NCBI GenBank assembly: GCA_951213105.1
Contig: OX578145.1
Location: forward strand, 10,383,110-10,447,109
DNA: 64,000 bases
Direction: 5' to 3'
From: Amaurobius ferox
Lineage: Eukaryota; Arthropoda; Arachnida; Araneae; Amaurobiidae
Numbering within the stretch: position 1 is the first letter of the stretch; the number at the start of each line of letters is the position of its first letter. A program made the translations under genes and the position numbers. Under the pieces are notes generated by a model. That model was not told where the DNA came from. It saw only the letters and a list, made by a program, of their open reading frames with translations, and searched no databases. Positions 780-57,712 of this stretch are shown here, one piece after another.

Positions 780-1962
780 CTGCAGGGGGGCGAGAAGAAG
801 ATGAATTAATTATCGGACGCATTCATCATGTTTATCATGCTGCAGTTCGGATAGAATCGAATAAGAGGATGCAATGAGGTTCAATGTCTTGTATCTGTTG
901 TGTGTAATTTGGTAGGCGTGATGTGTGGGAATGTGTCGATGAGATAATTATGCGTAGGAACGATGGAATCACGTCCTGTGCTGTAGGGCTAACCCATGGC
1001 CGAACGGTGACGGTAGGATTCACAGAGTCGTGAGAAGTCAAGCCACAGTTTAAGAGATCGAGCCTCGGTTAAAAAATATTGACAGACTGCGCGTGTTAGG
1101 TTTTAGCGGATTTCACAGTGTTGTGTGGATTTCTTCTAACTCACTAGTGCCTTTTCATCTAACGAACACTTAACGTCATTGAGGTGTTAGTTTCACCAGT
1201 AATTCATTTTCTCAGTAACTAATGTAACCATTTGACAAATAACTAGTTTTTCAGTAACTATCTTAACTATTTCGCAAATAACTTAATTTTTCCAGAAATT
1301 AATGTTGTTGTTACGCATGGCTTTATTGGAAATCAATCCATTACATAACGAGCATCTCACGGTGATACAAAGGTAGAAAATAATTAAATAAGCTAACTAA
1401 ACACAGGAATAGGACAAATTAATGAGAAATACTATAGCCATTAGCCGTTACTCATTTAGCGCCTCAGACGGCTTGAGGTTTCTCACGGACGAGAGTATCA
1501 TTGCCAGGAAGGCATTCATAGTAACATTAATACATTTAATATGAGGACATATTATTATATTTATACAATAAATATTGCAACTAATGTAATAATTCCAAAA
1601 GTAACTCATTCTTTTAGCCAGTAACTAATGAGTAGTTTATAGCTCTCCATAAAAATATACTTTAAAAACAGAATAAGGCAAAACTTCTATTGCTCTTATA
1701 TAAATTTATTTTTGTATACCTGGATTTTGATGTTACAAAATTAAATAATTTAACAAAATAATATCAGAGCATTCATCTAACAATCAATAAATACAATACA
1801 TATAATCTCTAATCCAACTAAAGTCGTAATTCTTTAAAAGTTAACCCTACAATAAGCATTAGTATAAACACACACACACACATGGACGTATGCGGGATTT
1901 TTTCCAGTGGGGTGCTAAAACCGGTTGCATTCAAAAATTTAGAGATCACGAACAACTTTTCA

Positions 1963-2040: not shown

Positions 2041-2280
2041 CTTAAAATTGTTAATCCAATGGTAGAATACACACACACACACACATATATATAAATTTTT
2101 TTCATAGATACTTTAGCTTACTAAAATATGAAGGATGCTATGCAAATATGATTAAATAATGAATTTAAAGTTATTAAGTAAATGGAATGAAAATGCAAAA
2201 TACATTTAATTTATTGCGCAAATGCAGCTTATAAATAAAATGATTGCAGCTTCTTTTCGTTCATTGGATTTTCAAACTAC

Positions 2281-2283
<3 letters not shown>

Positions 2284-2332
<49 letters not shown>
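2284..2332. repeat. (AT)n at a Penelope-like junction
   Basis: A TA run joins the 3'-end sequence of one P1 element (ATTGGATTTTCAAACT at 2263-2278) to the 5'-truncated coding part of the next one (from 2333). Confidence 0.9.
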
Positions 2333-2335
<3 letters not shown>

Positions 2336-2935
2336 TTTAATGTCAAAAACTTTCCTATGCTCTTGAACTTTGTGTTATACAACAATTATATTATCCAAGG
2401 TGATAACATTTATTTACAAACATCTGGTGTACCACAAGGTGGCTGTAGTATTAGTATACTCGCTAACTTATATCTTTATTATTATGAATGTCATTTTAAC
2501 TCTAATTCATATATTATATATAGATATGTTGACGACTTAATTTGTATTATCATTGATGATTCCTATCCAATTAATATTGATTTTTACCCATCTAACCTAG
2601 AATTAATTCCTAATGAACCTAGCGTTAGTCAAACTGTAATTTTTTTAGACCTAAATTTAGATACCTTCAATAATCATGTAATCACCAATCTATATGATAA
2701 AAAAGATTCTTACAACTTCACTATCATAAAGCTGCTATCATATCAATCTTGCAATTCTATTCAATTGTTTAGAAACATCATTTTAAACCAGCTCTTTCGA
2801 ATACATTGACTTTCTGATCCTCGGTTTCACTTTCTCCACATCAATAATCTTAAACGCATTTGTCAAAGTTACCAATATCCGGAAGTATTTGTAAATAGTA
2901 TTATTAATAATTTTAAATATACCACGTAATCATTT
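2333..2935 (+). pseudogene. Penelope-like reverse transcriptase fragment (P1a)
   Basis: The reading frame from the TA run to 2809 has PLE reverse-transcriptase motifs: GVPQGGCSISILANLYLYYY (RT4 region), YRYVDDLICI with the catalytic Asp pair (RT5), and FLDLNL (RT6). The N-terminal part up to RT3 is missing. The frame meets TGA at 2807-2809 where the related copies have a sense codon. The homologous C-terminal part (LSDPRFHFLHINNLK and onward) continues beyond it to about 2935. This is therefore a truncated copy with at least one nonsense mutation. No endonuclease domain is seen. Its closest relatives in the window are at 4736-5466 and 60029-61140. Confidence 0.8.
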
Positions 2936-3709
2936 TACACATGCATTATTTATCTTTGATTGGATAACTCATTTTTGAGAATTCACCCATTCTTATCACC
3001 TAACTTACCACTTGGCCTGAGTCTAATATTGTTTACTATTTTCGAATGACTATTTTCCACTTGTCCTGAGTCCTATACTGATTACTATTTTTGAAAGTCT
3101 CCATACATATTATGTATCGTTCACATGTATTCATTCCGGTGCCCACTCGCATTGACGAAGTGAGGTGAAATGCTCGGTCGCTTGTTCCACTTACACATGG
3201 TAACAATGCTTGTGAGTTCATATTTCTGTTCGAGGAGGTATTATCTTTCTGATTTGTAATTCAATTGATTTATTTTTCTCCTTCCACTAGCCAGTAGACA
3301 GTTCCAATGGTGTCTATAGTTAAATACTATCGCCATTGTCAGAAACTGGCTATTCTATCGGTTTTAATTCGAATTGTATGGTTGTCTTGATGAGAATGCA
3401 ATTTCGAACTAACCGCCATTTTTTGTGTAATTTCAATTGATTGTTCTCTATGTCTTAATCTTTTATCTTGAGCTAATTATTATTGCCTTTTCTCATTTTT
3501 GCCGTATTTTCTTTATATTTTTATTTATATTTATATACTTTTAATTTTGTATCCTAATATTCTTCTCATCCCCCTTTCCATTGTAGTGATATGTTACCTT
3601 CTATCCTTAGTCTTAGTCTATAGTTACTCATTTGTAACAGATATGCTCAAGATGGGTTTTTTTTGTACATTCAGTAGTTTATGCATAATTTTCGATTAAA
3701 ATCTTTCAA

Positions 3710-3714
<5 letters not shown>
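2936..3714 (+). other. Probable 3' region of the P1a Penelope-like element
   Basis: This AT-rich non-coding stretch lies between the P1a coding relic and the next TA run. At 3150-3180 it has TTGACGA followed by GTGAAATGC. These are the same core blocks as the hammerhead-like motif in the other P1 copies, but stem I does not pair convincingly here. Confidence 0.4.

Positions 3715-3803
<89 letters not shown>
3715..3803. repeat. (TA)n microsatellite at a Penelope-like end
   Basis: About 89 bases of TA. It lies exactly next to the 3' end of a minus-strand P1 element, whose end reads (on plus) ATAGTTTGAAAATAAAATCC. Confidence 0.95.
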
Positions 3804-3808
<5 letters not shown>

Positions 3809-4735
3809 TTTGAAAATAAAATCCAATGATAGAATAGACAGAAGTTGCGACTCAAAAATCCCCAACATTAAAAATTGCGTAACAAATAAAAAAGTATCAA
3901 ACAGAGAATCATCAATCAAGTGGAAAATAAAATGCAAACCTCTAGTTATCAAGCTGAAGATAAGCAACAAACATCAATGGAAAGAAATCGATATGAAATA
4001 AAATCCAAGCATGAAAGCTTTACACTTGGACAAGCCCTAGGCCTAAACAATGAATTGTGCATTTCGATAAAACTCTTCATCAAGTCCAAGTGTTTTATCA
4101 AAATGAACGCAAAATACATGTTTCTGATATCAGTGATAGATTATATCTATAAACGCTGTTAACTTGGACTACATGCATAAAGATTGAAAAATTATAAGAA
4201 ACAAGAATACATGATAAAACACTGCATACGTCTGATCCATTGGAGCCTTGAATAAAGAGATCAATGTTGTCAATCGCTAAAAATAAAAAGTTGAGAATTG
4301 CTGTTGCCAATCGTGAGAAATAATAATAGTCATGCGAAAAGACGATAAAAGGTGATATTCAACAGTAAAAGCTACAAAATAATGGGACAGCTGATAATAG
4401 AAAACATAGAGGCTAAATTATAAGGGGATGTAAATAGAGGGTAATGCTTATTCAAGAGAAAGTGGATGTCTGGCTAATATAAGATACTAAGGAGAGAATT
4501 TAAGTATATCCAACCATTCTATAAACTTTTTAACTATATTATTTACTAAATATACTGGATATTTATATAATTTGCTGGTCATTTTTAGCTTATTTAATAT
4601 GCATTGCATGGCATTTTTTATCTGATAATCTATAAATTCTAAAAAGTTGATTAAGTATAATATTTTTCAATTTGATACTATTAATGGAGTGTGAATCAAG
4701 TTTGAATAGTTCTCTAAATAATCTAATAAAAATTG
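3804..4735 (-). mobile_element. Penelope-like P1b, C-terminal coding relic and 3' untranslated region
   Basis: Read on the minus strand, 4735-4500 encodes the relic of the C-terminal block (NIILNQLFRIYRLSDKKCHA and then YKYPVYLVNNIVKKF) shared by all P1 copies. About 700 bp of 3' region follows, ending at the TA run. It is fused directly to an N-terminal part at 4736-5466, so RT2 to RT7 have been deleted. It contains the hammerhead-like motif at 4021-4093. Confidence 0.7.
4021..4093 (-). ncRNA. Type I hammerhead-like motif in Penelope-like 3' region
   Basis: On the minus strand, 4093-4084 and 4031-4022 form a perfect 10-bp stem I (ACACTTGGAC with GTCCAAGTGT). Between them are TTGATGA (4083-4077), one extra A, a 2-bp stem II with loop GTTTTA, GAAA (4065-4062) and a 3-bp stem III (A-T, T-A, G-C) with loop CACAATT. 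The predicted cleavage site is after T4049. The first core base is T where active hammerheads have C, so this copy is probably weak or dead. PLEs are known to carry type I hammerheads with minimal stem III. Confidence 0.5.
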
Positions 4736-5466
4736 TATATTGAATTTTTTACCGCATAATTATTTGAGGCTTTATCAACATATCTATCATATTTATCATC
4801 AAGTAATAACAAAAGATCTTTGTAAATCATTAATGAAATGTTTAAAATTATCAATATTATACATAGGTCTAAACGATTTAATACTACAAATAGTATTTTT
4901 AATAAATTTCAATAAAGTAAATTTCCATATATTAAATGCCTCTAAAAGCAGAGCATATTTAGAAGCTAATTTATAAATATATTTATCAAGGTCAAGATTT
5001 ATTGACTTTTAAAACTTTAAAAGAGTTATTACAAGATGGTAACCTGAATTTTGTACCAAATGACATTTCGTCTTTAAATATTGCTAAGTCTCCTGTAACT
5101 ATATGGCCCAAGTATGGATTTATATATTCAGCAAATTCGTCTACCTTACAAATACAATCATTATCTACATTTGACATGGAATCTTTATCTATAGAGAGAG
5201 ATTGTGAAATTTCATTGCAATTAAAGATACATCTACGAATCGGCTTGTATTTAAAAGTCTTAGTAACATTCAAATCCTCAATAGGCAATAAGTGTTTGAA
5301 TTTGTTAAATATAGACCCAAAATTTATAGACTTATAAATTGGATGTTTAAAAGATATCACACAATAAGAATTAGTAGACGCATTATTATGAAATTGATTA
5401 AGTTTTATTTTTAAATACTTTGATCTAGTAAAGAGCAAATCATGGAAAATATGATTAAAATATTCA
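4736..5466 (-). pseudogene. Penelope-like N-terminal and RT1 fragment (P1b)
   Basis: The minus-strand frame from the TA run down to 4992 reads a PLE N-terminal region. It includes a Cys-containing stretch (RRCIFNC and later CICK) and then GHIVTGDLAIF followed by GTKFRLPS. This is the conserved block that precedes the reverse transcriptase in PLEs. After a stop and a frameshift, 4985-4740 continues with LDKYIYKLASKYALLLEAF and the RT1 motif (YVDKASNNYA). The 5' end is cut at the TA run, and no GIY-YIG endonuclease is present. The cysteines might be the remains of a finger, but I cannot assign a PLE subclade. Confidence 0.65.
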
Positions 5467-5485
5467 TTTATATATATATATATAA
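5467..5485. repeat. Short (TA)n at a Penelope-like junction
   Basis: About 18 bases of TA separate the 3' end of one minus-strand P1 copy (5486 and higher) from the 5'-truncated start of the next (5466 and lower). Confidence 0.85.
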
Positions 5486-5703
5486 TAGTTTGAAAATCCA
5501 ATGATAGAATAGAGAACTTGCAACTCAAAAAACCCTAACTTTAAAATATGCCTACATAATAAAAAGAAGTATTAAATAGAGAATCATCAATCAAATGGAA
5601 AAAAGAATGCAAATTTCTAGTCATCAAGTTGAAGATAATCAACAAATATCAATAGAATGGAATCGATAATTAAAAAACAAATAAAATCCATGCATTAAAG
5701 CTA

Positions 5704-6271: not shown

Positions 6272-6398
6272 ACTTTCCTTATATATATAATGTATAAGGA
6301 AAGTATTGTGACGGGGTCAAAAATTCGAATTCGAGTTTTCGACAGGAGAGCACGTTTCAAGCATCCCTGATCACGAATCAAACATTTTTGAGGTGATG

Positions 6399-9850: not shown

Positions 9851-10129
9851 TTTGACGAATAAACTCGTTTTAAAACCTTCTAAAACCCATTTCGGCGAAC
9901 TCTTACTCAAGAATAGTATCGCTCAGAAATTGGATGAGTGACTATAATATGTGAAAAAATATAACTTGGTAGAATTTTGTATATATCGTCCGACTAGGAA
10001 ATAACTTTATGAAAATCTTTGCTTTTGAATAATTTATTTCTCATGGAGAGAAATGCAAACTTAGCTGGACTGACCCGCTGCCAACACGAAAGTTTTCTTT
10101 CAAAACCATTTCAAATTTAAGCATACAAG

Positions 10130-11370
10130 AAAAATCAATCATGCATAAAGCATTGGTTATGAAACACTTTTCAACTGAAATGCAATTTTATTTAAACATC
10201 TTTAAAATGCGATACATTCAGCGGTGATATATTTTAACTTATCACAGTACTACAGTAATTCATTATATTTGAAAACTTCAAACTTCATAAAAAAAAATGA
10301 ACTTTATTCAAATGACGTCATCGAAATGCAAATCGTCTGGCTCTCTATGTAAAAGCATGTTTCATTCATACACTTTTATTTCAGACTTTTTTTTTTCTTT
10401 TCTTAGTGGCTAGACATTTGATATTTCATCATTCGCCTATACTCCGGCCAGAACCGTGCAACCTGTTAGCCGTCACATGACGTTGCCCCGGCGCACCAGT
10501 GGGGGTCGGTGCACACAGCGCCCAACGACACAACATCCATGCCTGAAGGTGGGACTCAAACCCACAACCCGGCAGCCGAACGATCGCTAGGAATCGCTTG
10601 CCTTGACCGTTCGACCACGGCGTTGGCTTTTCTATTCCAGACTCCAGAGTTATATAATTTTGCGTGAAAAAAAAAATTCAGCAATTTTTATACAAGTCAT
10701 CTTACAATCACTTGCATTCTGCATCCATTAAAATGAGTTTTCGTTTTAGAAATAATTAAAGTTGGATGATGGATTAAATTAAAAAATATTGTAATTACGT
10801 TGGTACAGAATATAGATACACAGAAAATACGCAAAAATAAAGCGGTTTTAGGACGGATGCAATACGCAATATAAATTTAAAAGAACTTTAAAAAACACGA
10901 TTTTTACACTAGGTAAAAAAATGAATGCCCTATTTTATTTTGAAGTGGATCACGTGATATCTTCATATAATATGGGTATCATTAATATTCTAATTTTTAT
11001 TTAAAAAACTACCGAGCCTATTTTGCTTAAATTTTTTTTATATATTTTATGGGATAATTTGAATATTTTCTAAAATTTTCGAAGCAATTTGTGAATATTA
11101 ACTTTGCTTAAAATATGTTTGAAAAATGAGGTCCCATAGGTTTGAATGTATTTTATTTTTTCAATCAACCCGGGTTCGATCCCAAACTAATTGGTTGATA
11201 TTATTCATTTACATTTCCATATGTCCCATAGGCCGTCTGAACAACATACTAAAATTTCATTTTGATAAAGTCATTTTTACGGCAGTTATCGTGCCAACGG
11301 ACAGCCAGACAGACAGAATGACCAACGTCATAAACACTTTTCAGCCATGTTGGAAAGTGTTAAGAATTTC
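10130..11370 (+). mobile_element. Family C element (C2), hairpin-ended, non-coding
   Basis: It starts near ATCAATCATGCATAAAGCAT with the inner inverted repeat AACACTTTTCAACT. It ends with the CAGACAGA run and AAAGTGTTAAG at about 11370. A tRNA-derived SINE is inserted at 10387-10628. The ORF at 11126-11479 is a chance frame across this repeat end. Confidence 0.75.
10387..10628 (-). mobile_element. tRNA-derived SINE inside family C
   Basis: The minus strand from 10628 reads GCCAACGCCGTGGTCGAACG (A-box region). Later it has GGGTTTGAGTCCCACC, a good Pol III B box. It ends in a T-rich (on plus) tail at 10387-10405. Flanks resembling TTTTATTYCAGAC on both sides look like a target duplication. The head differs from the SINE family at 58709. 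Confidence 0.65.
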
Positions 11371-15544: not shown

Positions 15545-16552
15545 TTTCCTTACATACGTAGTATAATCTAATAAGAAAAGTATTGTGACGGAGTCGAAAA
15601 TTCGAATTCGAGTTTTCGACGGGAGAGCACGTTTCAAGCATCCCTGAACACGAATCACACGTTTTTGAAGTAGTGTCTGTGTGTCAGTGAGTCTGTGGAG
15701 ACGATATCTCACGAACGAATGGAGCGATTCTAAAGAAATTTAGTAGAAAAATTACAATCCATAAATACTGGAAGCCTATTGTTTTATACACAATCGACTG
15801 TTCAGACCCCCCCCCCCCCTCCCTAAAATTTCGAGTGAAACTTTGAAAAAATCATCAAAAAATCGAAACCTTTAATAAGGTTACATAAATAATCATTACT
15901 TATGTAATTTTTCATTTGAATAGCATGAACCGTTCTCGAGATATTGCACATTTTTTATTTAAGATTCGGGTCGCTCGACCTTGGTTGGAATTTGGCAAAA
16001 AATCATCCATTTGGCGCTTTTTAACGAGTAATGGAAACTCCTCGAGTTGGGTTAAGAATTTCCAGAGTTATGTAGATTTTTCCAGAGATTTCCACAGAGG
16101 ATATATAAACTGGTCAGGTCACTATTCATTTGGGTGTTGCTGGAGTGATACAAGTGAGAGTAACTCGCCAATGCTTTGCAAATATAATCTTCCGTTTTCT
16201 GAAGGAGTTAAACATTTAATTTATGTTTTATTGTTCCTGACCTGACGGTTATTTTATAACATTGATAGATAACTAGAGAGAATTAGCCAATATTAACACA
16301 AGTCAGTCGAATACATTGGATTCATCATCGTGACTGATCTATTGTCAACTAAGGGGGGGGGGGGGAGAGTGAAGAATACTGGAGAAAGGAGAAAACAAAA
16401 CTCACAAAAAGTTATCTTTTTATTTGCTATAGATATATGTGTGTTTACATATATTTGCGCATTCTATATATTTGTTATTGTCCGTAAAATTGGAAATGGT
16501 TTGTTTGTAGGGAAAGTCACGTGCCGATGACATCAAGATTATCTTATTTTGT
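15545..16552 (+). mobile_element. Family A element (A4), interior replaced or interrupted
   Basis: It starts with the hairpin remnant and GTATTGTGACGGAG at 15587. The family interior holds up to about 15955 and it ends in GGGAAAGTCACGTGCCGATG. The middle (about 15955-16500) does not match other family A copies and may be a further insertion. It holds a C run at 15808-15820 and a G run at 16351-16365. Confidence 0.6.
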
Positions 16553-19147: not shown

Positions 19148-19522
19148 GTAATGATCAGTGGTTGAAAAAACTAATTTATTATTGTAGTGATCTACAACTA
19201 CATTATGACAAATGTAGTTAACTACAACTACTTTTTTTTAAAGTAGTGACTGCAAACTTCTTTTAAAACAGAGTCACTACATAACTACTTTTATAAGAAG
19301 AATTTTGCCACGGCTTCATTTTCATAAAATGTTGAGGATATGGATGTACTGTAGCCATTTAACATACTTATTCTGAATAATTAAAATTGACTGATCAACT
19401 TGCCAATCTTTACGCTTTTACCCACTTCTGAAAACGGTAAAATAAAATAAAAGTATAAACTTTAAAATCAAAGACAACCAAAAATAAGTTTTAAAGTCCT
19501 TTAATAAAATCTCAGTGTCAAA

Positions 19523-19538
19523 GCCACTGATGAAGGAC
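19523..19538 (+). ncRNA. 5' half of a split hammerhead unit
   Basis: GCCACTGATGAAGGAC matches stem I, core and half of stem II of the intact copy at 25319. The rest is missing here, and the 3' half appears at 20716. An inverted copy of the unit's tail lies just before it (19460-19515). Confidence 0.55.
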
Positions 19539-19554
19539 CCCTAACAGCATTTTT

Positions 19555-19905
19555 TTTTTTCACAGTGACGTAAGATTTACGTCACACTGTGACTTTGCAA
19601 CGTCACAGGACGTCGCAGTACGTCTCTGCAATGTCATATTGAGGTCACAGTGAAGTCATTTTGGTCATTTTCATGGTCGTTTATGACGTCGCATATTAAC
19701 TTGTTTGTGACGTCACATTGTAATTGCCATTGTAATGTCGTCACATTGTTACTTGTTAATTACATTGTGGAAACGTCACAGAATATAGTCACAATGAAGT
19801 TACAAAGTTACTAATACGTAACGTCGGCTAGAAGTCACAAATATGATGTCACATTGTGACCCAGGTGTCACGTAACTACAACGTCACTGTCACACATAAG
19901 ACTCC
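19555..19905. repeat. Degenerate GTCACA/TGACGTCA array
   Basis: In about 350 bp, GTCAC or its complement recurs more than twenty times at irregular spacing. Several full TGACGTCA-like palindromes are present (for example near 19710). The array lies inside the hAT element, between the hammerhead half and the THAP duplication. Confidence 0.7.
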
Positions 19906-20019
19906 TCTATATACGAGCTGACTCATCAAGCATATTGAAGCCCACTGTAGCTGGAAGCGCAGTCCATCAGCATTAGTTCTATTCGTATTTTCAATTTAAG
20001 AAGTATAATTGAAATAATT

Positions 20020-20181
20020 ATGGGTGGTTGTTCTGCACCGAACTGCTCCAACCATTCTAGAAAGGGTTTGAGGCTATTTCGCTTTCCTAGAAATGAAGAA
20101 AGAAGAAAACAATGGCTAATATATAATTGGATATCCGGTAATGGAGCATACTTTTGCGAGCTAAGTTCTACAATATTCTAA
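20020..20181 (+). pseudogene. THAP zinc-finger domain relic, copy 1
   Basis: The frame from ATG at 20020 runs 53 codons and begins MGGCSAPNCSNHSRKGLRLF. It goes on to RFPRNEERRKQWL. This is the N-terminal half of a THAP domain: two Cys of the C2CH finger, the FRFP motif and the conserved Trp. Near the end FCEL keeps the third Cys, but the expected His is replaced by Ser, and a stop follows. THAP domains bind DNA in P-element-type transposases and host THAP proteins. Nothing downstream encodes a catalytic domain, so this is probably a captured or eroded first exon. Confidence 0.7.
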
Positions 20182-20399
20182 TTGAAACTTCTTTTTTTAT
20201 ATAAAGTATTTATTTCAAACACTTATTTTATAATTTCCGTAACTGTGGTATGGAACCCTATGGGCTTCAATATGCTTGATAAGTCAGCCTGTAGTAGAGG
20301 AGCTCTAGTTCTGATTGAAGCCTACCATAGCTGGAAGCGCAATTCATTAGCATTAACTCTATTCTTATTTTCACTTTAGGAAGTATAATTAAAATAATT

Positions 20400-20495
20400 A
20401 TGGGTAGTTGTTCTGCGTCGAACTGCTCTAATCATTCTAGAAAGGGTTTTAGGCTATTTTGCTTTCCTAGAAACGAAGAAAGAAGAAAACAATGA
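20400..20495 (+). pseudogene. THAP zinc-finger domain relic, copy 2
   Basis: This is the second copy of the same exon, in the tandem duplicate. It starts MGSCSASNCSNHSRKGFRLF and reads FPRNEERRKQ. The conserved Trp codon TGG is then changed to TGA, ending the frame at 31 codons. The Arg before the FP motif has become Cys. Confidence 0.7.
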
Positions 20496-20715
20496 CTAAT
20501 TAATAATTGGATACCCGGTACTGGAGCATACTTCTGCGAGCTAAATTCTAGAATATTCTAATTGAAACTTCTTTTTTTATATAAAGTATTTATTTTAAAC
20601 ACTCATTTTACAATTTCTGTAACTATAGTATGGAACCGTATGGGCTTCAATATGCTTGATAAGTCAGCCTGTAGTAGAGGAGCTCTAGTCACACATGTGA
20701 CGATCTTTATTGTGA

Positions 20716-20830
20716 GGGACATTGTGATGCCCGAAAGCGCTTTGGCCGTGTCATTTTTGTACGTCGAGGAAATGAGATTTTATTAAAGGACTTTAAACCC
20801 TATTTTTGGTTGTCTTTGATTTTAAAGGTT
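20716..20830 (+). ncRNA. 3' half of a hammerhead unit and its tail
   Basis: GGACATTGTGATGCCCGAAA and GCGCTTTGGC match stem II, GAAA and stem III/I of the intact unit. The tail (TTTTTGTACGTCGAGG, then TTTTATTAAAGGACTTTAAA) follows. The CTGATGA core is missing. Confidence 0.6.
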
Positions 20831-21288
20831 AATTAAAATTAACGTGTATCCGTTTTATTTATTACAAGTATAAAATAAAATAAAAATAAGAACTATTTAT
20901 TTGAAAACATGTTTGTTCATTTTTAGTAGAATTTGTATCTCAAAATGGCAATCAGATAAGATGGATCTTTTGGGAAATAACACATCTGAATATATTCATA
21001 TAAAAAATCAACTTCATGAGACATTGACCTTCCTAACCCTGCAACCATTCATCGTACATTGTTGCGCAGAACACTCAATTTCATACAATTGAAGAAAGGG
21101 TGATCCCATGATATGTAGAATGACACCTTGTTTGTTTACTGAAGTAACGTTAAAAGTAGCGTCAAAACTCGACACAAACGAGTAATTTATTGTATGGCGC
21201 TACTCGTAAAAGTAGCGCGTTACACTACAAACTACGAGAAAAAGTCGTGACCACGGTAGTTTCGCTACTTTCGACCACTGGTAATGAT

Positions 21289-24756: not shown

Positions 24757-25021
24757 TACTTAGAACTAATATAATCAAAGAAAATAAAATAAATATACAG
24801 TAGAGAGAGAAAAAAATGCAAGTATTATTAAGTAAGTATTTTTTTTAAAGAATATTAAATACATTCTTCTATAAACACCCTTTTAAATATATTTTTCTAT
24901 ACTAAACAGAAATAAGTAGTATGCATACAAGTTAACTAATTAAACTTTAACATCAAAGACATGCAAAAATAGGTTTAAAAGTCCTTTAATAAAATATTCT
25001 TTCCTCGACGTACAAAATTGC

Positions 25022-25067
25022 AAGGCCAAAGCGCTTTCGGGCATCACGATGTTTTTCATCAGTGGCT
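25022..25067 (-). ncRNA. Hammerhead ribozyme copy, inverted arm
   Basis: Minus strand: GCCACTGATGA, then a damaged 5' arm of stem II (AAACAT instead of GGGCAT), loop CGTG, ATGCCC, GAAAGCGCTT and TGGCC. The catalytic core is intact, but half of stem II cannot pair. Confidence 0.55.
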
Positions 25068-25069
25068 TC

Positions 25070-25114
25070 ACCACTGATAAATAACATTGTGATGCCCGAA
25101 AGTGCTTTGGCCGT
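25070..25114 (+). ncRNA. Hammerhead ribozyme copy with broken core
   Basis: CTGATAA replaces CTGATGA, losing the essential core G. Stem III is GTGC instead of GCGC. The rest of the unit follows in order. It is probably inactive. Confidence 0.55.
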
Positions 25115-25318
25115 GTAATTTTTGTACGTAGAGGAAAAGAGCTTTTATTAAAGGACTTTAAAATCTATTTTTGGTTATCTTTGATTTTAAGGTTTAAACA
25201 GAAATAATTAACACTTCTCCTTTTTAACACTTTACAACATAGTTGAAAAGTGTTTATGACTTCGTTCATTCTGTCTGATACTTTCCTTATACATTATACT
25301 ATGTATATAAGTGGTTTT

Positions 25319-25360
25319 GCCACTGATGAAGGGCATTGTGATGCCCGAAAGCGCTTTGGC
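25319..25360 (+). ncRNA. Hammerhead ribozyme, best copy
   Basis: Stem I is GCCA (25319-25322) with TGGC (25357-25360). The core is CTGATGA (25323-25329), followed by one unpaired A. Stem II is GGGCAT/ATGCCC with loop TGTG (25331-25346). GAAA (25347-25350) precedes the palindrome GCGC (25351-25354) and TT. Stem III cannot close on itself, but it would pair between two molecules, as in dimeric hammerheads of metazoan repeats. The predicted cleavage is between 25356 and 25357. The extra base after the core occurs in every copy here. All residues needed for catalysis are present. Activity is inferred, not shown. Confidence 0.72.
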
Positions 25361-25857
25361 CGTATAATTTTGTACGTCGAAGAAAAGTGATTTTATTAAA
25401 GGACTTTTAAACCTATTTTTGGATGTCTTTGATTTTAAAGTTTAAACTGAAATAATTAACACTTCTCCTTTTTAATACTTATACAACATAATTGAAAAGT
25501 GTTTATGACTTTATTCATTCTATCTGTCCGTCTGTCCGTGCGTTAGCACGATAACTGCCGTAAAAATGAGTTTATAAAAATGAAATTTTAGTATGTTGTT
25601 CAGACGCTCTGTGGGACCTATGGGAATATAAATGAATTCACCCAATTCGTTTTGGATTGAGCCCGGGTTGAAAAAATGAAATACATTGAACCCTATGGGA
25701 TCTAATTTTACAAACATTTTTTAAGCGAATTTAATATTCACAAATTGCTTCGGAAGTTTTAGGAAATATTCAAATTATCCCATAAAATATATAAAAAAAA
25801 TAATGTAGCAAAATATATTCAGTAGTCTTTTTAATAGAAATTAATAACTACATCCTT

Positions 25858-25955
25858 TATATGAAGAGATTACGTGACCATTATATGAAGATATCACGTG
25901 ACCATTATATGAAGAGATCGTGTGACCATTATACGAAGAGACCACGTGACCCACT
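25858..25955. repeat. CACGTGACCATTATATGAAGAGA minisatellite, four units
   Basis: About four units of 24-27 bp, each with a GTGAC(C) block followed by ATTATATGAAGA. In other family C copies the site is single (48290) or double (59003-59047), so it expanded inside this element. Confidence 0.8.
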
Positions 25956-26508
25956 TCAAAATAAAATATGGCATCCATCTTGTGTCAAAACAGTGATTTT
26001 TAAAATTCTTCTTAACTTATATTTAGTGTTGTATCCGTCCTAAAACCGCTTTATTTTTGCTTAATTTCTGTGTATTTGTATTCTAAAACAGCACAATTAC
26101 AAAATATTTGAGTTTAACTGATCCTCAAACTTTGATTATTTCTACAACGAAACCTAATTTTCGCTTATGGAGAATGTAAACAGATTAGGCTATAAGATGA
26201 GTTGTATAAGAATTGCTGCATTTCTTTAACGCAAAATTAATTTGTTCTGGAGTCTGCAATATAGATGATATGAATGAAACATTCATTGATTTTACGTAGA
26301 AAAGCAGACGATTTAATGTCAGATTTTTTCGATGAAGTTTTATGCATAGAGTTAAATTACTTTTACCTCCATGGTTTTAAGTTTTTAAGCAGAATAAATT
26401 ATTGTAGTACTGTGATGAATGAAATAATGTACTGTGATGAATGAAATAAATTATTGTTGTACTATGTATGAATGAAATATTTACTGCTTTTATACAGAAA
26501 GCCAGGTC

Positions 26509-26602: not shown

Positions 26603-27145
26603 AGAGAGCCAGGTGATTTATATTTCGATGACGTCATTTGAATCAAGTTCGTTTTTTTTTTCCATGAAGTTTTAAACTTTCAAATATAATTAATTATTGC
26701 AGTATTTTGATAATTTTAAAAATATTACAACTGAATGTATAGCATTTTAGAGATCATAATCAATGGTTTATGCATGATTGATCTTTCTTATTCATTTATG
26801 TCCTCTATAGCTCAATTTCCTTTTCTGTGGCCTATCGGCGAAGGAATGGCGTAGCATGGAGACTCAGTCACTTACTGAAAGATGAGTCATGGTTTCCTCA
26901 CACACACAGTAATTATTTGCACAAATATTCAAGTTGGACAAAAAAAATAGATGAATTAAAAAATAGGGCCTTTTCAAGGTCTTTCAACAATAAATAAGGT
27001 CTTTCTAAGGGCCCTAAAAAACAAAATGAAAAATCAGGCCTTGCTAAGGGTTTCTCAAGGCTCGTGGAAACCCTGTAATAGTAATAATAATAATAATAAA
27101 AGAAGAAGAAGAAGAAAGTAATATTAAAAGTTAACATACACTTAC

Positions 27146-27492
27146 ACTGGGTATGTTGTCGTTGTTGCAGACGCCTTCGGACAATAACCTGTCTCTGATT
27201 TCCCAGGCAAATATGGAAGGGCACTCTCTCTTGTATTCCGATATTTTGGCCACAACATGGGGCGTCGCCACCCGGGGCTTGCTGCCCCCGATGGCCCTGG
27301 GCTTGATGGACCCCGTCTCGTAGTACCTGCCCAGTATCTTGGACACGCAGCCGTTCGAGACTTGGAGAATCCGAGAGATATCACAAGGCCGGGCCCCACT
27401 GTGGGCCAACTCCACGATCTTTTGCCGCGTGGAGTCGGGCAGGGGGCGGCCGTTCACGTATACTCCTCCCAGCTGATTGATTCCGCTGTGGC
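27146..27492 (-). CDS. toy: Pax6/toy coding exon 3 (paired domain, PAI subdomain and most of RED)
   Basis: This 347-nt exon encodes about 115 residues of a Pax paired domain, a sequence-specific DNA-binding domain of a nuclear transcription factor. The acceptor is CTTTTTTTAG before 27492 and the donor is AGT|GTAAGT at 27146/27145 (phase 0). Landmarks in order are [20 protein letters not shown] (beta hairpin), the [20 protein letters not shown] helices, [19 protein letters not shown] (recognition helix), [17 protein letters not shown] (linker), and [20 protein letters not shown] with VCNNDNIPS. In the recognition helix, Ile, Gln and Asn occupy the places that separate Pax6 from the Pax2/5/8 type. 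Asn in VNGRP and the GINQ, VYVNG and SIKPRA spellings point to toy rather than eyeless, which has Gly at that site. There are no stops or frameshifts, so it appears functional. Confidence 0.96.
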
Positions 27493-27639
27493 CTAAAAAA
27501 AGAGAACTACGATTACTTAGCTGCTTCATCTTTCTGATTTCTGTATTTTTCATAACATAAGTAATTAGGAAATAAAATGCATACTTAAGATATTTTTGAG
27601 GGCGGAGGGTGCAAGATATTTAAATATTTTAATACAATT

Positions 27640-28490: not shown

Positions 28491-29413
28491 TGATATAGGC
28501 AGCACATAACTTTTCTTATATAATGCAATGAATTGACTACTTTTACAGTAAAAAAATAGGTTATTCTTATAGTAGATACTTATATTCTTTCCAAGATATT
28601 GAATTTTCGTCAATGAGTCATCATTTTCATGGATTGAGCGTCATTTTTCTCCATTTGGCGAGATTATCGTTAATTTGGCAACGTTTAAAAAAGTCGCCAA
28701 GTTGGCGACGTTCCGTCAAATTCGTCGCCAAACGTTATGGATAGAGAAATAAATTATTCTTATAGAAGATAAATGACTATTGGCGTTCAAGTAAAAAAGT
28801 ATTACTCAAAGTATCTTTTCTCATGAATGGAATGAGCTAGATCCACGAGAATGATGTCACCCAATTTATTGCATCATATTACATATGAAAAATGAACATG
28901 TTTCTCAATAGGAAATATTTTTTTTATTTTATATGATTTTTTGATATTTTTTTTTAATGTGCAATATCTCGTGAACGGTTTACGCTAGCGTTCTAAAGTT
29001 TATGTCAATCGTTTATTAAGGAAAAATTACATAAGAAATGTTTATTTATGTAACTTTATTAAAGGTTTTGATTATTTGATGATTTTTATCAAAATTTCAC
29101 TCGAAAATTTAGGGGAGTTCTGAACATTCGATTGTGTTTAAAAACAATAGACTTTCAGTATTCAGGGATTGTAATCTTTGTACCAATTTTCATTCAAATC
29201 GCTCCATTCGTTCGCGAGATATCGTCTTCACAGACTCACTGACACACACACATACTTTTACACACACACACACACACACAGACATCACTTCAAAAATGTT
29301 CGATTCGTGATCAGGGATGCTTGAAACGTGCTCTCCCGTCGAAAACTCGAATTCGAATTTTCGACCCCGTCACAATACTTTCCTTATACATTATAATATG
29401 TATATAAGGAAAG
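28491..29413 (-). mobile_element. Family A element (A7), near complete
   Basis: It starts CTGATATAGGCAGCACATAA and ends with GTCACAATACTTTCC and the hairpin at 29377-29413. The CA microsatellite lies at 29250-29280. AAAAAT borders both ends. Confidence 0.8.
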
Positions 29414-34846: not shown

Positions 34847-34993
34847 TCCCTTTCATATCTTACCCGTTGTTGTTGTTGTTAAGACCCAAGCCGTCTGACC
34901 TACCAGAAAGGTGTAAGGTAACTGCATATCTTACCCGTTGTTGTTGTTGAGACCCAGACCGTCCGACCTACCAGAAAGGCATATCTTACCCGT

Positions 34994-35379
34994 TGTTGTT
35001 GTTGAGACCAGACCGTCTGACCTACCAGAAATTGTGTAAGGTAACCGTTTGGACGGCCGGGAAGTGCCACCCAATTTAGACCGGAACCCACTGGGGGAGG
35101 CATCCACAGGGACCGTACCCTCCTTCCCCTACCACCAACCTCTCGGAAGGACTTGTGGACTCACATGTTTAACATGATCGTACTCCGCATGAACAGTTTT
35201 GGCAGTTTTGGCAGCGTGAAAATCCAGCGCGCAAACCACCGGGCTACCACGCCCGAAAAATGCCAACAGCACGCGGTGTTCCCAGGTGGTCACCCACCCA
35301 AGTACTAACCGCGCCCGATGCTGCTGGACTTCGGTGATCTAACGAGAACCGGTGTTTTCAGCACGGTAAGGCCATTGGC
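34994..35379 (-). mobile_element. Chimeric 5S rRNA-SINE retrocopy
   Basis: Read on minus, a full-length 5S sequence (35379-35261) is followed by five T and then by the SINE. The SINE starts at its first base (CGGGCGTGGTAGCCC) and ends in (CAA)n near 34994. The target word flanks the whole unit, so it was inserted as one piece. The SINE part is the same family as 58709-58971. Confidence 0.8.
35261..35379 (-). rRNA. 5S rRNA-derived sequence (retropseudogene)
   Basis: About 119 nt match eukaryotic 5S rRNA end to end: GCCAATGGCC at the start, ACACCGGTTCTCGTTAGATC, GCATCGGGCGCGGTTAGTAC in the internal promoter, and GGGAACACCGCGTGCTGTTG at the end. A few substitutions (for example GTTAGA for GTCCGA and GTCCAGC for GTTAAGC) and its position in a retrocopy argue against a working gene. 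Confidence 0.85.
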
Positions 35380-35472
35380 ATGTATATCTTACCCGTTGAA
35401 ACCCAGACCGTCCGACCTACCAGAAAGGTGTAAGGTAACTGTTTGGACGGTCGGGAAGTATATCTTACCCGT

Positions 35473-37880: not shown

Positions 37881-37952
37881 GTCCCAATAGTTCAACGAAA
37901 GAGCGTCGGCTGGTCAGTTCGGAGATCCAGGGTTCGATTCCCGGTTGGGGCA
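37881..37952 (+). tRNA. tRNA-like sequence, probably a pseudogene
   Basis: The 7-bp acceptor stem pairs (GTCCCAA with TTGGGGC, one G-T). The D arm is GTTC/GAGC, and the T arm has GGGTTCGATTCCC. The anticodon stem is poor, and its 8-base loop CTGGTCAG resembles an Asp type with an insertion. It lies 16 bases before a primer-binding-like site, so it may belong to a retroelement. Confidence 0.45.
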
Positions 37953-41357: not shown

Positions 41358-42142
41358 AGAAAAACATGATGTGGGCAGCATACTTTCACTACATCAATGA
41401 TATTAATTTCCCCAAAGCGACAGAGATTATCAAATAAATTGAGCGTTATTCTCAAAAATATTGAATTTTCATCAATTTGACGTCATTACTGTTAATTAAA
41501 CGTTACTTTTGCTTACTTCACGTTCGCCAATTTGGCGACATTTTCAAACACCGCCACGTGAGCGATATTTCACAAAGTTCGTCGCCAAATTGTCTCTCAT
41601 GAATGGAATGAGCTAATCCACGGGAATGACATTAGTAAATTTGTTCCATAATATTGCATATGGAATATCAACGCATTTAATGATACTTCTTTTTTTTAAT
41701 GTTATGTAATTTTTTTACAAAATCATTTGAAAAATATGCAATATCTCGAGAACGGTTTATGTTTGCCTTCTAAAAAATTGTCAATCATTTTATAATTAAA
41801 CATTATGTATGAAATGACTATTTATTTTACATTACTGAAGATCCTGACTTTTTCATATATTTATTCAAAAATTGCGAGATCATCCAAACATTTGATAGTA
41901 TTTAAAATCAATAGAGTTTCAATGTTCTCAGATTGATCGCACCCAATTTCTTTCAAAACGCTTCATTCGCTCGTGAGATATCGCTTACGCAGACACACAC
42001 ACACACATTGCCTCAAAACCGTTCGATGCGAGTTCAAAGATGTTTGAGACGGACGTGCTCTTCCGTCGAAAACTCGAATTCGAATTTTGGACCCTTCACA
42101 ATACTTTTCTTATGCATTATACTATGTGTGTAAGGAAAGTAA
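41358..42142 (-). mobile_element. Family A element (A8), diverged
   Basis: It starts GATGTGGGCAGCATACTTTC and has CGCCAATTTGGCGAC at 41525. It ends with ACACACA, TTCGAATTTTGG and the hairpin at 42098-42139. Confidence 0.65.
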
Positions 42143-48116: not shown

Positions 48117-49010
48117 TTCAACCATTTTTTAAGCGAATTTAAAATTCACAAATTGCTTCGAAAGTTTTATGAAATATTCAAATTATCCCATAAAATATAT
48201 ATATAAAAAATTTTTCAGCAAAATGTATTCAGTAGTTTTTAAATAAAAATTAAAATAATAATTGCACCCTTTATATGAAGAGATCACGTGACCCACTTCA
48301 AAATAAAATATGGCATCCATCTTGTGTCAAAATCGTGATTTTTAAAGTTCTTTTTAATTCATATTGAGTGTTGTATCCGTCCTAAAACCGCTATATTTTT
48401 GCTGTAATTCTGTGCATCTACATACTGAAACAACGCAATTACAATATATTTGAGTTTAAATGATCATCCAACTTTGATTATTTCTACAACGAAGGGTAAT
48501 TTTCACTTATGGAGAATGTAAATACCAAAGAATAAGTTGTATAAGAATTGCTGCATTTCTTTAACGCAAAATTATTTAGCTCATGAACTCTGCAATATAG
48601 TTGATATGAATGAAACATTCATTGATTTTACACAGAGAACCAGACGCTTTTTTCGATGAAGTTTTAAGCACGGAGTGAAATTACTTGTACCTCCATGGTT
48701 TTAAGTTTTTAACTAAAATAAATTACTATAGTATTGTGATGAATGAAAGGAATGGAAAAAGTTTATGAATGAAATGCTGCTTTTATAGAGAGAGCCAGGC
48801 GTGTTATATTTCGATGACGTCATTTGAATAGAGTTCATTTGTTTTCGATGAAGTTTTAAGTTTTCAAATATAATAAATTAAGGTATTGTGATGATTTTAA
48901 AAATATTACCGAGGAATATGTCGCATTTTAGAGATGTTTATATAAAGTTGCACTGAAGTTGAAAAGTGTTTCATAATCAATACTTTATGTATGATTGATC
49001 TTTCTTGTTT
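48117..49010 (-). mobile_element. Family C element (C5), hairpin end missing
   Basis: It runs from AAGCGAATTTAAAATTCAC through ATATGAAGAGATCACGTGAC. It ends near GGAAAGTG-type GAAAAGTGTTTCATAATCAA and ATGATTGATCTTTCTTG. Confidence 0.75.
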
Positions 49011-49954
49011 CATTTGCTGTTTCCTGTTTTACTCTGTAAAGGGATTATAGAACTCAAAAAAGTGGGGAAAAAATTGATCCTATTCAACATTTTATATTTA
49101 ATAAAGTATGCATTATAAAAACACTCTTTGATTCCAGTAATAAATATATATTTTCTTTGAATGTACATTTTTTTAAACATAATATTTTAGAGAGTTTTAA
49201 ACAATAAGCCATTTGTAGAACAAAAAATGGGTATGACAGCTTACGACCAACATTACTCGGAAGATTTTGTATCCAAAATAAAAGTTTTTGTATCTATAAT
49301 TATACAGGAACCATTGCTTATTGTGAACCTAAATAAATTTGTATTTAAAGTACATTTCTATTGAACAAATCAATGTTGCACAAAACTTTAGAAATTCCAA
49401 CAACATAAGCTATTGTAAAATTGCAATAGGAAAACATGAAAATATTTAGACTCATTTTTTCGAGACTAACATACATTGTATAATCTGAAATTTTCATGGA
49501 AAAATAGTGAGAAGTTTCAAAATGAACGAGAACGCAATATCAAAAAGTCCCATTTTGAGGAAAATAACTTATAATATAAATGACTTTGTTATTTCTTAAT
49601 CTTTCATTTGCTTTTAGAACCTGAGACACTCCAAAAATTATAGTTTTTTATACGGATTGTTTTAAAATAGGCGGAAACGTTTAGGTTTCCTTAAATATAA
49701 ATATTTGAAAATTTTTGATTTTTTGAAGGTTTAACAATCTCTTACTCCTCAAAAGTCAAAATTGAAAAGATTTTATTTATTGAAAGATAAAATGATTATT
49801 TGGAAAGATTTTATTTATTGAATTGACCTCCTTCCAAAGCCTTGTGCATTGTGCCATCTCATTGCCATGCCATGGTTGTACATATTTTCTGTTTAGGACA
49901 AATAACTGTGTTTTGTGTTCTATTCCTGCTTTTAATCAGAAAATTAACTAGAAT
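49011..49954. other. Intron 1, AT-rich, unassigned
   Basis: No gene is seen. A short direct repeat TTGGAAAGATTTTATTTATTG-like lies at about 49755-49820. Confidence 0.35.
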
Positions 49955-51631: not shown

Positions 51632-52246
51632 CAGAGTTCCCACACCTCAAGCAGAAAAAAAATAAGGCCTTTTCAAGGCAATTTTTTTTTTTTTTTATAT
51701 AAGACTACTTAGAACCTAGCAATCTAATCAAAGAAAAATGAAACAAATTCAAATATACATTAGAGGGAGAAAAAAATGCAAGTATTATTAAATAAGTATT
51801 TTTAAATAATATTAAGCCACTGATGACGGGCATCGTGATGCTCGAAAGCGCTTTGGCGTGTAATTTTGTGTGTCGAGGAAAATATATTTTATTAAAGGAT
51901 TTTTAAACCTATTTTTGGTTCTCTTTACTTTTAAAGTTTAAACAGAAATAATTAGCACTTTTCCTTTAACTTTCTCTCTCTTTTTTTTTCATTTATGTCC
52001 CCTAGCTCAATTTTCTTTTCTTTGGCGTAGCATGGAGACTCAGCCACTTACTGAAAGATGAGTCATGGGTTCGTCACCGCAATTATTTGCACAAATATTC
52101 AAGATGGACAAAAGAAATAGATGAATTAAAAAATAGGGCCTTTTTAAGGTCTTTCAACAAAAAATAAGACCTTTTTAAGGACCCTTAAAAACAAAATAAA
52201 AAATTCAGGCCTTTCTAAGGGTTTCTCAAGGTCCGTGGGAACCTTG
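51632..52246. mobile_element. Family E element (E2), short complete form with one hammerhead unit
   Basis: The ends are CAGAGTTCCCACACC and GGTCCGTGGGAACCTTG. AAGGCCTTTTCAAGGCAATT lies inside the left end and GGCCTTTCTAAGGGTTTCTC inside the right. One hammerhead unit (51816-51957) sits in the middle. It lacks the large nested insertion of E1. Confidence 0.75.
51816..51857 (+). ncRNA. Hammerhead ribozyme, second well-preserved copy
   Basis: Stem I is GCCA with TGGC, the core is CTGATGA (51820-51826), and one extra C follows. Stem II is GGGCAT/ATGCTC with one G-U pair and loop CGTG. GAAA (51844-51847), the GCGC palindrome and TT complete the fold. The predicted cleavage is after 51853. The conserved pairings in spite of base changes (loop and stem II) support selection or recent activity, but this is inferred. 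Confidence 0.7.
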
Positions 52247-55449: not shown

Positions 55450-55572
55450 TGGTAGACACTTTAAAATCAAAAACAACCAAAAAATAGGTTTAAGAGTATT
55501 TTATTAAAATCTCCTTTTTACGACGTACAAAATCACACGCTTTCGAGCACTATTATGCCCTTCATCAGCGGC
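55450..55572 (-). ncRNA. Hammerhead unit, minus strand, decayed
   Basis: Minus: GCCGCTGATGA, an extra A, GGGCAT, loop AATA, GTGCTC, GAAA and GCGTGTG. The unit tail (TTTTGTACGTCG and TTTTTTGG) follows down to 55450. Core and stem II are kept, while stem I and the stem III palindrome are damaged. Confidence 0.6.
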
Positions 55573-55904
55573 GAAGTGAAGACGAGGTGCGAACATGTGC
55601 TTAAATATAGGCCATAACCGCCCGGCAAAATTTACATATCAATCAATTTACGTTTTTATATTTTTAAATACGAGGCATTTAAAATATAATTTAATTATAA
55701 AATACTAATTACAATAATAGGAAAAGGTTCAAAAATTAAATGGTAACCGATAGGAATGTCGTCAAAAAACGAAATAAAGCAACAACTAAATTTTCAGAAA
55801 ATCATATAAAGGTTTAACACTTAGTGAGTCCAGAACGAGGCGCCAAGCATAACGCAGGGTCTGAACGGGATCAAAATTACAAATTGACTTGAGGTAAAAA
55901 TAAA
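55573..55904. other. Intron 1, unassigned
   Basis: AT-rich, with no gene or repeat recognised. Confidence 0.35.
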
Positions 55905-56560
55905 GAAGAAAGATCAATCATGCATAAAGCATTGATTATGAAACACTTTCCAACTGCAATGCAATTTTATTTAAGCATATCTAAAATGCGATACATTTAG
56001 CGATACTATTTTTAAAATTATCACAATATTCCATTAATTTATTATATTTGAAAACTTAAAACTTCATTGGAAAAAATTAACTTTATTCAAATGACGTCAT
56101 TGAAATGTAAATCACTTGGCTCTCTATGTAAAAGCTGTAAATATTTCATTCATACACTTTTATTCCTTTCCTTTCATTCATCATAATACTACAATAATTT
56201 ATTTTATTTAAAAACTTAAAACCATGGAGGTACAAGTAATTTAACCTTATGCTTAAAACTTCATCGAAAAAAATCGTCTGCTTCTCTATGTAAAATCAAT
56301 GAATATTGTATTCATGTCATCTATATTGCAGACTCCAGAGCTAAATAATTTTGCCTTAAAGAAATTCAGCAATTCTTATACAACTCATCCTACATCTTTA
56401 TGTGTTTACATTCTCTATAAGCGAAAATTATGCTTCATTGAAGAAATAATCAAAGTTGGATGATCATTTAAACTCAAATATATTGTAATTGCGTTGTTTC
56501 AAAATATACATGCATAGAAATTAAGCAAAAATAAAGCGGTTTTAGGATTCATGAAGTAAT
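55905..56560 (+). mobile_element. Family C fragment (C6)
   Basis: It runs from AAGATCAATCATGCATAAAG through GAAACACTTTCCAACT and the CATGGAGGTACAAGTAATTT block. It breaks off at GCGGTTTTAGGATTC. Confidence 0.75.
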
Positions 56561-57712
56561 ATATTACGGGGTTATTGCAGCTGATTAAAAGAAAAGTTTT
56601 ATCAAACATAGGTTAAAAATTACCGTTAGTAACGTATTACAATACAGGTTAATAACAGAAGAGAAGAGAATTTAAAAAAAAAGGCAATTTATCACAAGTT
56701 TCCCTGCACTTATCGACAAAAATCATCCCACTGAATAACAGTACAATCAAGTAAAGAAATGTAAATATAACAAAAAAAAACTAAAACTGTTGTCTAAAAT
56801 ATTCTAAAAATAAAAATACTTTGTTTAAAACAGTATATAAACGGTTAATTAGTTATTAACCAGTCTGTTAGTAACCAGTTTCAAAGTAAGAAGGTTATTG
56901 AGAATATTCAAATAAAGGCAACCTGTTTCACAAACAGTAGTATCATACACTAAACAGAAAACTGACAAGTAACACATGCACTGGTTTAGAAAAGAAATCA
57001 ATTATCTTGAAAGAAAAACAGAGCAGTTGAATAATAATAAAAAAAAAAAACTAATGACATTAAAATAAAACCTAGAAAACTACAATAAGAAATATCACAG
57101 TACAGAATATATATATAGAAATATTACAATACAGGCAAATATTACATTACATCCATTACTAATACAGAAAACAACCCGTTTCAAAAATCAAATTAGCTAC
57201 ATCAATCTGGGGGAGGGGGGATTAAAACGTTTTGTTTACAGGGTGTTTAAGATTAAATAAACACTTAGTTTGAAGAAATAATTTTATTGACAAAAGATTT
57301 ATTTAAGCAATTCTTGTTTTTTTTTTTTAAGTGAGCCAAAGAGGTCATTAATTGATCCCATTTTCAAAATGTTTGCCTTCCGTTACCACAACCCAGTTAA
57401 GTATTTCAAAAGTTATTCCCAGAGGAAGCGTTCGGTTAATGATTGAACAAACACCCCGTTCATATACAGTCTTAATCTTCTATTCCACGAAGTCACAAAA
57501 TTCCATCTCTAAACTCTGTTCATTGGAAACTTCGTCCAAAAGTCACGCATTTCAGTCTATCATTTTCTTAAACAATGAATAAGTCAGTTACTCAATTTTT
57601 GACAATGAGTTGCATAAGATTTCCAAATCGGGGGAAATGATAGTAATCATTAAATTATGCAAGTATAGAATGAAATTAAAATTTGAATTATGCAAATTGT
57701 ATATATACGTAC
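56561..57712. other. Intron 1 next to exon 1
   Basis: AT-rich, with repeated TTAAC and ACAGTA phrases. No known family or exon was found. TATA-type runs occur at 57110. Confidence 0.35.

Follow-up and report, generated by a model that had tools for sequence, protein, structure and literature searches.

A small hammerhead motif in the probable terminal repeat of a Penelope-like retroelement family of the spider Amaurobius ferox, found nested within DNA transposons

Penelope inserts, as described for Adineta vaga in excerpts of PMC3846280, carry an inverted pLTR, and their palindromic head-to-head junctions are explained there by self-priming. The same excerpts report solo pLTRs, a 31-bp tail that is optional on one pLTR, duplications of 8-10 bp, and TATA together with TCACT within the pLTR. 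Minimal type-I hammerheads that lie in pLTRs are dispersed by the thousands in animal genomes and are thought to act as dimers, according to excerpts of PMC7761336 and PMC6155905; Lunse, Weinberg & Breaker 2017 is the work cited for dimer cleavage. What hammerheads do in Penelope-like elements is called a mystery in the excerpt of PMC7761336, and hammerhead mutants of a lizard Penelope had no effect on insertion in vitro in that of PMC11167929. Animal retrozymes of ~170-400 nt are also known, and Penelope-like elements have been proposed as their movers (PMC7229834, in excerpt).

We analyzed a 64-kb stretch of the A. ferox genome (hereafter the window), which contains several copies of a dispersed 128-bp unit headed by a hammerhead motif. 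With a probability of about 80%, this unit is the pLTR of a family of Penelope-like retroelements, with a small type-I hammerhead at the putative transcript start. As judged from sequence, the unit would most likely be the 3'-terminal repeat of such an element. The family is most likely new, the small hammerhead belongs to a kind already known, and the DNA-transposon setting is unusual. This setting is most likely explained by nested transposons rather than by a new ribozyme system. The coordinates of the features are collected in Table 1.

Table 1. Hammerhead units, their carriers and associated features, in positions of the window.
Feature	Positions	Strand	Remarks
Hammerhead motif of copy A, intact	25319..25360	+	predicted cleavage 25356/25357
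Unit A, pLTR arm (hammerhead + ~85-bp downstream part)	25319..25445	+	repeats unit B in tandem, period 248
Unit B	25071..25197	+	core disrupted to CTGATAA; stem II also disrupted
Unit C, head-to-head partner of B	24940..25066	-	core intact; 3/6 stem-II pairs lost
3' tail extension, unit C only	24916..24939	-	~25 nt here, ~31 nt elsewhere
Left 13-bp direct repeat, target duplication of the B/C insert	24903..24915		TAAACAGAAATAA
Right 13-bp direct repeat	25195..25207		TAAACAGAAATAA; overlap with arm end up to 3 bp
Unit D	51816..51941	+	hammerhead 51816-51857 intact; left arm absent
TIR element K holding unit D	51632..52246	+	ends CAGAGTTCCCAC...GTGGGAACCTTG
Non-autonomous hAT element holding copy E	19156..21280	-	8-bp duplication ATCATTAC at 19148-19155 and 21281-21288
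Copy E, inverted partner	19456..19513	-	hammerhead deleted
Copy E, first part of hammerhead	19523..19536	+	GCCACTGATGAAGG
Copy E, remaining hammerhead and downstream part	20713..20832	+	beyond ~1.18-kb insert
Unit F, diverged subfamily	55458..55572	-	9-column deletion; cleavage site and stem I 3' strand gone
Upstream part of F pLTR	55573..55914	-	TATATTTAAG and TCACTTC just before hammerhead
Degraded coding remnant	56568..56636	-	YVTNGNF*PMFDKTFLLISCNNP; similar ones near pLTR in six other places

The motif of copy A reads GCCA-CTGATGA-A-GGGCAT-TGTG-ATGCCC-GAAA-GCGC-TTT-GGC, and the sequence and a descriptor scan agreed with an earlier note on this DNA that all hammerhead elements follow one another in order at 25319-25360. 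The descriptor comprised the core, a stem I of at least 4 bp, a stem II of at least 3 bp, and a stem III of at least 2 bp. On both strands of the window it matched at exactly two positions, 25319 and 51816, the latter being the second complete copy (copy D), and a looser form returned the same two matches. Copies A and D share a 4-bp stem I, a 6-bp stem II and a minimal but palindromic stem III (GCGC); the descriptor scan together with the genome copies bore out the earlier description of a dispersed unit of this type. The conserved core CUGANGA/GAAA, the A15.1-U16.1 pair and H17 were present in copies A and D and in the majority consensus, and the deviation from the hammerhead core consisted of one extra base, A or C, after A9. 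As had been noticed before, this base was shared by the copies that retain CTGATGA, which are five of five in the window (25319, 51816, 24940-25066, 19523, and 55572). The hammerhead of Chrysanthemum chlorotic mottle viroid also has an extra nucleotide in its core after CUGAUGA; this is a viroid, and its sequence is unrelated to the spider unit. The spider motif resembles the small hammerheads of Penelope-like elements (Cervera & de la Pena 2014; Lunse et al. 2017) in its type-I fold, its near-absent palindromic stem III, its pLTR location, its thousands of copies dispersed in an animal genome and the dimer mechanism expected of it, but differs from them, as far as they are known from citing text, in the extra base after CTGATGA.

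Copies of the unit were found at all places named in the earlier note, namely at 51816, in decayed form at 25022, 25070, and 55533, and split at 19523/20716. Unit A is a tandem duplicate, with a period of 248 bp, of unit B together with its neighbour sequence. The insertion that splits the copy E hammerhead (19537-20712, ~1.18 kb) contains two direct copies of a 380-bp repeat. A 34-bp hairpin-like sequence, ATACTTTCCTTATACATTATACTATGTATATAAG, lies at 25278-25311 and also at 29375-29408, 42101-42134, 6278-6306, and 15549-15583; at the four latter places it follows (G/T)TCACA and therefore looks like part of another repeat.

Among 1000 dinucleotide-model shuffles, the descriptor matched 53 times, and ten of these matches scored as high as the real motifs; in all ten, the stem-III gap was longer than 6 nt. 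The two full hammerheads of the window count as one event, because both belong to one family. The chance of a strict match is ~1% per 64 kb, and a chance origin of a hammerhead-like motif is not negligible over the many repeat families of the genome. The covariance search suggested in the earlier note returned no significant hammerhead match in the window with Rfam release 15 at the gathering score, and none at E≤10 in 24800-25700, 25290-25380, or 51790-51880. Hammerheads with an extra base and a poor stem III may fall outside the Rfam models. RF00163 had no match in the genome itself either, which is uninformative because none of the 14 control genomes was matched. Exact pattern scans gave no matches in viral contigs and none in prokaryote genome contigs, and phage records contained no match.

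The assembly of A. ferox (3.56 Gb, 276 contigs) was searched with three queries: the unit (30 loci), the tail plus arm (25 loci), and copy F (15 loci). A loose first look gave 2098, 3637, and 2743 candidates, respectively, of which 40 each were scored. The 70 fetched loci (numbered L001 and onward) correspond to 64 distinct places, to which three stretches were added. Both arms were present head-to-head at 25 of the 30 first loci, with one arm often shortened; the pair of C and B at 25 kb thus has the usual form. Where both arms were whole, the junction was the palindrome CAGTGGC-RAA-GCCACTG or a close variant. Direct repeats of the unit were confined, among these 30 loci, to L001 (the place of A and B in the window) and to L011/L024, which are a single place with a repeated palindrome. 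The break at L011 had been considered to coincide with the ribozyme cut; it lies 3 nt further on, and this idea was rejected. Neither two intact direct copies nor an array of intact hammerhead units occurred among the 30 loci. The hammerhead is of the dimer-type kind, as the earlier note had it, and could cut ~38 nt into its motif by dimerising through the GCGC palindrome. The units themselves mostly form head-to-head pairs and not direct dimers.

The tail-plus-arm and copy-F queries brought in insertions outside DNA-transposon carriers. From these 40 loci, we examined 27 insertions, comprising 12 of the 25 tail-plus-arm loci, chosen by their flanks, and all 15 copy-F loci. An exact repeat of at least 9 nt between the 3' flank and the upstream part was found at 14 of the 27. 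Six were accepted as target duplications of 9-14 bp because they were placed at the ends of the element: L059 (12 bp, ATCTGAAAAGAT), L065 (13 bp, TTAATGTAATACA), L067 (13 bp, TAATATAAATCAA), L050 (13 bp, TTAATAATAGGAG), L044 (11 bp exact, 14 by eye, TATTAGGAAAATAT), and L040 (9 bp, TTAACTATA). The other eight exact repeats, of 9-11 nt, were rejected (L036, L049, L060, L061, L062, L066, L070, and L071). When flanks and upstream parts were paired across different loci as a control, repeats of at least 12 nt appeared in 5/702 pairs, versus 4/27 in the real ones. In L059 (628/620), L065 (288/287), and L067 (360/363), the position of the duplication matched the limit of homology, which was found separately. 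In L040, L044, and L050, the duplication bordered the inverted partner at its distal end.

The 3' end of the inserts was fixed, either directly after the arm or after the optional tail of ~31 nt; at the six duplicated loci the offset was 0-2 nt (three) or 31-33 nt (three). Homology 5' of the hammerhead ended variably, at ~90 to 620 bp. Three pairs with longer shared upstream sequence were left out of this range: L058/L038 (~980 bp, family E), L060/L071 (~1380 bp), and L064/L068 (~1380 bp). Just 5' of the hammerhead, the inserts have TATAT(T/G)TAAGCAC...TTTTCACTTCGCC or a near variant, which is a TATA plus TCACT arrangement. We propose that transcription would start in the TCACTTC that directly precedes the hammerhead. 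In this model, the first cDNA strand would end at TCACTTC and could self-prime, which would give rise to the inverted partner.

The spider inserts thus share with Adineta vaga Penelope, as far as it is described in PMC3846280, the inverted head-to-head pLTRs, the palindromic junction, the optional tail, the TATA/TCACT arrangement, and solo pLTRs. Their target duplications are 9-14 bp compared with 8-10 bp there. In contrast to the inserts described in that source, many of the spider inserts consist of two inverted pLTRs without an ORF and were multiplied by DNA transposons, and no reverse transcriptase has so far been tied to the spider family. The position of the hammerhead also differs from that in the lizard Poseidon, where it lies at the pLTR-ORF border (excerpt of PMC11167929), whereas the spider hammerhead adjoins the palindromic 5' junction.

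These inserts bear on two other readings of the unit. It could be a retrozyme, i.e., a small non-autonomous repeat whose multimeric transcripts would be self-cleaved, circularised, and reverse-transcribed by Penelope-like machinery. A dispersed non-coding unit of ~130-160 nt with a type-I hammerhead is what such a repeat would look like, and the animal retrozymes in PMC7229834, with their proposed Penelope-like movers, are likewise small and non-coding and carry type-I hammerheads. However, direct repeats were limited to the two places given above, one of them a local duplication that includes neighbour sequence, and the other copies are homologous to ~620 bp 5' of the hammerhead and have fixed 3' ends, like a long 5'-truncated element. 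Unlike the retrozymes of that source, the spider units showed no hammerhead-bordered tandem arrays among the 30 first loci, and they have long 5' extensions and inverted pairs. We consider the retrozyme reading improbable; the small circular-RNA repeat mentioned in the earlier note is most likely the terminal repeat of a Penelope-like element instead.

The second reading, in which the palindrome belongs to an ordinary DNA transposon (MITE) and resembles a hammerhead by chance, draws on the many fetched copies that are palindromic and lie within TIR elements, on the decay of the motif without compensation and on the chance rate of the descriptor. It is very unlikely, since insertions outside the carriers are 5'-truncated, end with or without the tail and have duplications of 9-14 bp, and since a diverged subfamily has an altered loop II and H17 but retains the core and pairing. 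The truncated and tailed inserts also spoke against the idea that the unit is a MITE of its own.

The pLTR reading leaves the DNA-transposon setting to be described. The earlier note had placed the unit inside TIR elements of a hAT type and of a family E. The hAT element is real, as its 8-bp duplication is exact on either side, but family E is only a neighbour or a nested element, and the direct second carrier is K. Relatives of the hAT element, such as that at L020, are 0.9-1.3 kb long with CAGTG-type ends (CAGTGGTCGG...). Both hAT ends were visible at 9 of the 32 loci scanned, and all nine had an 8-bp duplication (five exact, three with 7/8 matching positions, and L020 with 6/8 by eye). K, the second element with inverted ends, also carries the palindrome found at 25 kb. 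Its target duplication, judged by eye, was 5/5 in L016 and 4/5 in L003 and L004, with none at copy D. The palindrome is bounded by the direct repeat TAAACAGAAATAA in K and by TACTTTTA (8-12 bp, within an AT-rich repeat) in hAT; because these direct repeats differ, the palindrome was inserted at least twice. The carriers hAT and K subsequently copied the inserted palindrome, and head-to-head pairs inside them were found in many copies of these carriers. Family E is a dispersed repeat of ~1.2 kb (25469-26506, 55906-56547, 48117-49015, 58012-58707, 59026-59456, 10127-10380, 10645-11366, and 1-212). In L038 and in copy F of the window it occupies an identical position immediately 5' of the pLTR, so that one composite copy was seemingly spread or family E has a target preference. 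Full-text literature searches returned no report of hammerheads inside DNA transposons at the level of titles and abstract beginnings, which does not prove their absence from the literature.

Next, we considered the conservation of the hammerhead in 45 arms, after leaving out the arms that lack the hammerhead part. The hammerhead was not more conserved than its surroundings, with an identity of 0.925 compared with 0.957, or 0.951 compared with 0.961 when CpG was omitted. Ten of the 45 arms were fully intact, and copy D, which was misaligned in this set, would be the eleventh. The earlier note had named the loss of compensatory pairs among genome-wide copies as a refuting outcome. In a first alignment (35 of the 45 arms, with the L001 arms as window coordinates), none of the ten pairs had changed on both sides; 91.3% of the pairings were kept, and all 500 shuffles paired at least as well. 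A second alignment held 24 mostly independent insertions, namely 23 of 29 rows plus L002, with five cleavage-side deletions and L059 excluded. Here, one of ten pairs had changed on both sides (three cells), and 92.2% of the cells paired in the 23 distinct rows. The observed values were reached by 30/500 shuffles for the covariation score, 68/500 for the cells, and 412/500 for the pairs, and sliding the alignment by -2 as a control gave three two-sided pairs compared with the one real pair. The covariation support is therefore weak.

Compared with the main subfamily, that of copy F mostly has AATA instead of NGTG in loop II and A instead of U at H17. Pair 18-23 is U-A in the main subfamily and U-G or C-G in the F subfamily, which mostly retains the core, stem I, GCGC, and the other stem-II pairs. 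Co-folding of copy A gave a dimer that resembles a double hammerhead, with a 10-bp intermolecular helix (AAAGCGCUUU) that includes core bases; the best co-fold of copy D and of the consensus differed from this dimer. In its natural 135-nt context, the best fold of copy A held the 5' strand of stem I in an upstream hairpin, whereas copy D, which is without the left arm, kept stems I and II.

The hammerhead might alternatively have been kept because it functions for the hAT or K carriers, e.g., by cutting carrier transcripts. The large number of loose candidates and the 10/45 fully intact arms would fit such a function. In contrast, neither compensation nor excess conservation was seen, and the inverted partner can mask the hammerhead, as in the fold of copy A. 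This renders a function in the carriers extremely unlikely. The hammerhead in the carrier copies is decaying without compensatory change.

A deletion of the cleavage side was common to five of the 15 F-like loci (L058, which is copy F of the window, L060, L061, L062, and L064), and the 3' flanks of these five loci differed. One common deletion combined with differing flanks indicates that a source without the cleavage side kept inserting, and, because it did, cleavage would not be needed for insertion. This lineage agrees with the in-vitro result for the lizard Penelope, as given in the excerpt of PMC11167929. The putative hammerhead was probably functional in the source elements, yet dispensable for insertion.

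At seven places (L049, L006, L059, L060, L058, L061, and L062), a coding remnant of ~55 aa was found close to the pLTR. Its best form, FTKHARDVKNGKLATVLAQYVINDNFHPMFDKTFLISCNNPRNILLYES, was found 3' of the unit in L049, and a broken form lay 5' of the unit there. By eye, the remnant looks like the C-terminal part of a GIY-YIG endonuclease; it matched no family in Pfam, no solved structure, and no entry of a protein database. None of the fetched loci had a reverse transcriptase joined to the unit. The window itself contains two RVT_1 remnants, at 2210-2809 (+) and 62119-63175 (-), which are ~43% alike and of which the first is below the Pfam cut-off; a third ORF, at 4992-5534 (-), had no Pfam match. 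The two RVT_1 pieces were considered as the mover and rejected, as tblastn against 32 and then 73 loci and stretches returned nothing. The reverse transcriptase query had no relative in viral contigs.

Other features of the window were recorded alongside. A paired-box exon is located at 27131-27619 (-; Pfam PAX, E 3.7e-68), and 333-809 (-) resembles, by eye, the end of a Pax6/eyeless paired box; these stretches place the window in or near a Pax6-like gene. A 5S rRNA match (103 bits) lies at 35261-35379 (-) and a weak tRNA match at 37881-37952 (+). At L031 (reverse strand), a ~400-bp tandem repeat by the pLTR (3342-4120) is 88% identical to window positions 34992-35459; as these span the 5S rRNA match, the repeat is possibly 5S-related.

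Taken further, the pLTR reading leads to a tentative one, which we hold as a possibility somewhat short of even odds: the ribozyme-bearing end of a retroelement became cargo of DNA transposons, so that self-masked head-to-head pairs would be numerous in hAT, whereas the hammerhead of the parent Penelope-like family would sit at the 5' end of the transcript and be dispensable. The duplicated independent insertions, the two subfamilies that keep the hammerhead, the lineage with the deleted cleavage side, and the promoter-like stretch make both the 5'-end role and the dispensability testable in one genome. If the cargo reading is true, the spider would offer natural lineages with and without the ribozyme in which the role of the Penelope hammerhead could be tested. 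The family also shows how ribozyme motifs can multiply by riding DNA transposons without staying functional, which calls for caution with genomic ribozyme counts.
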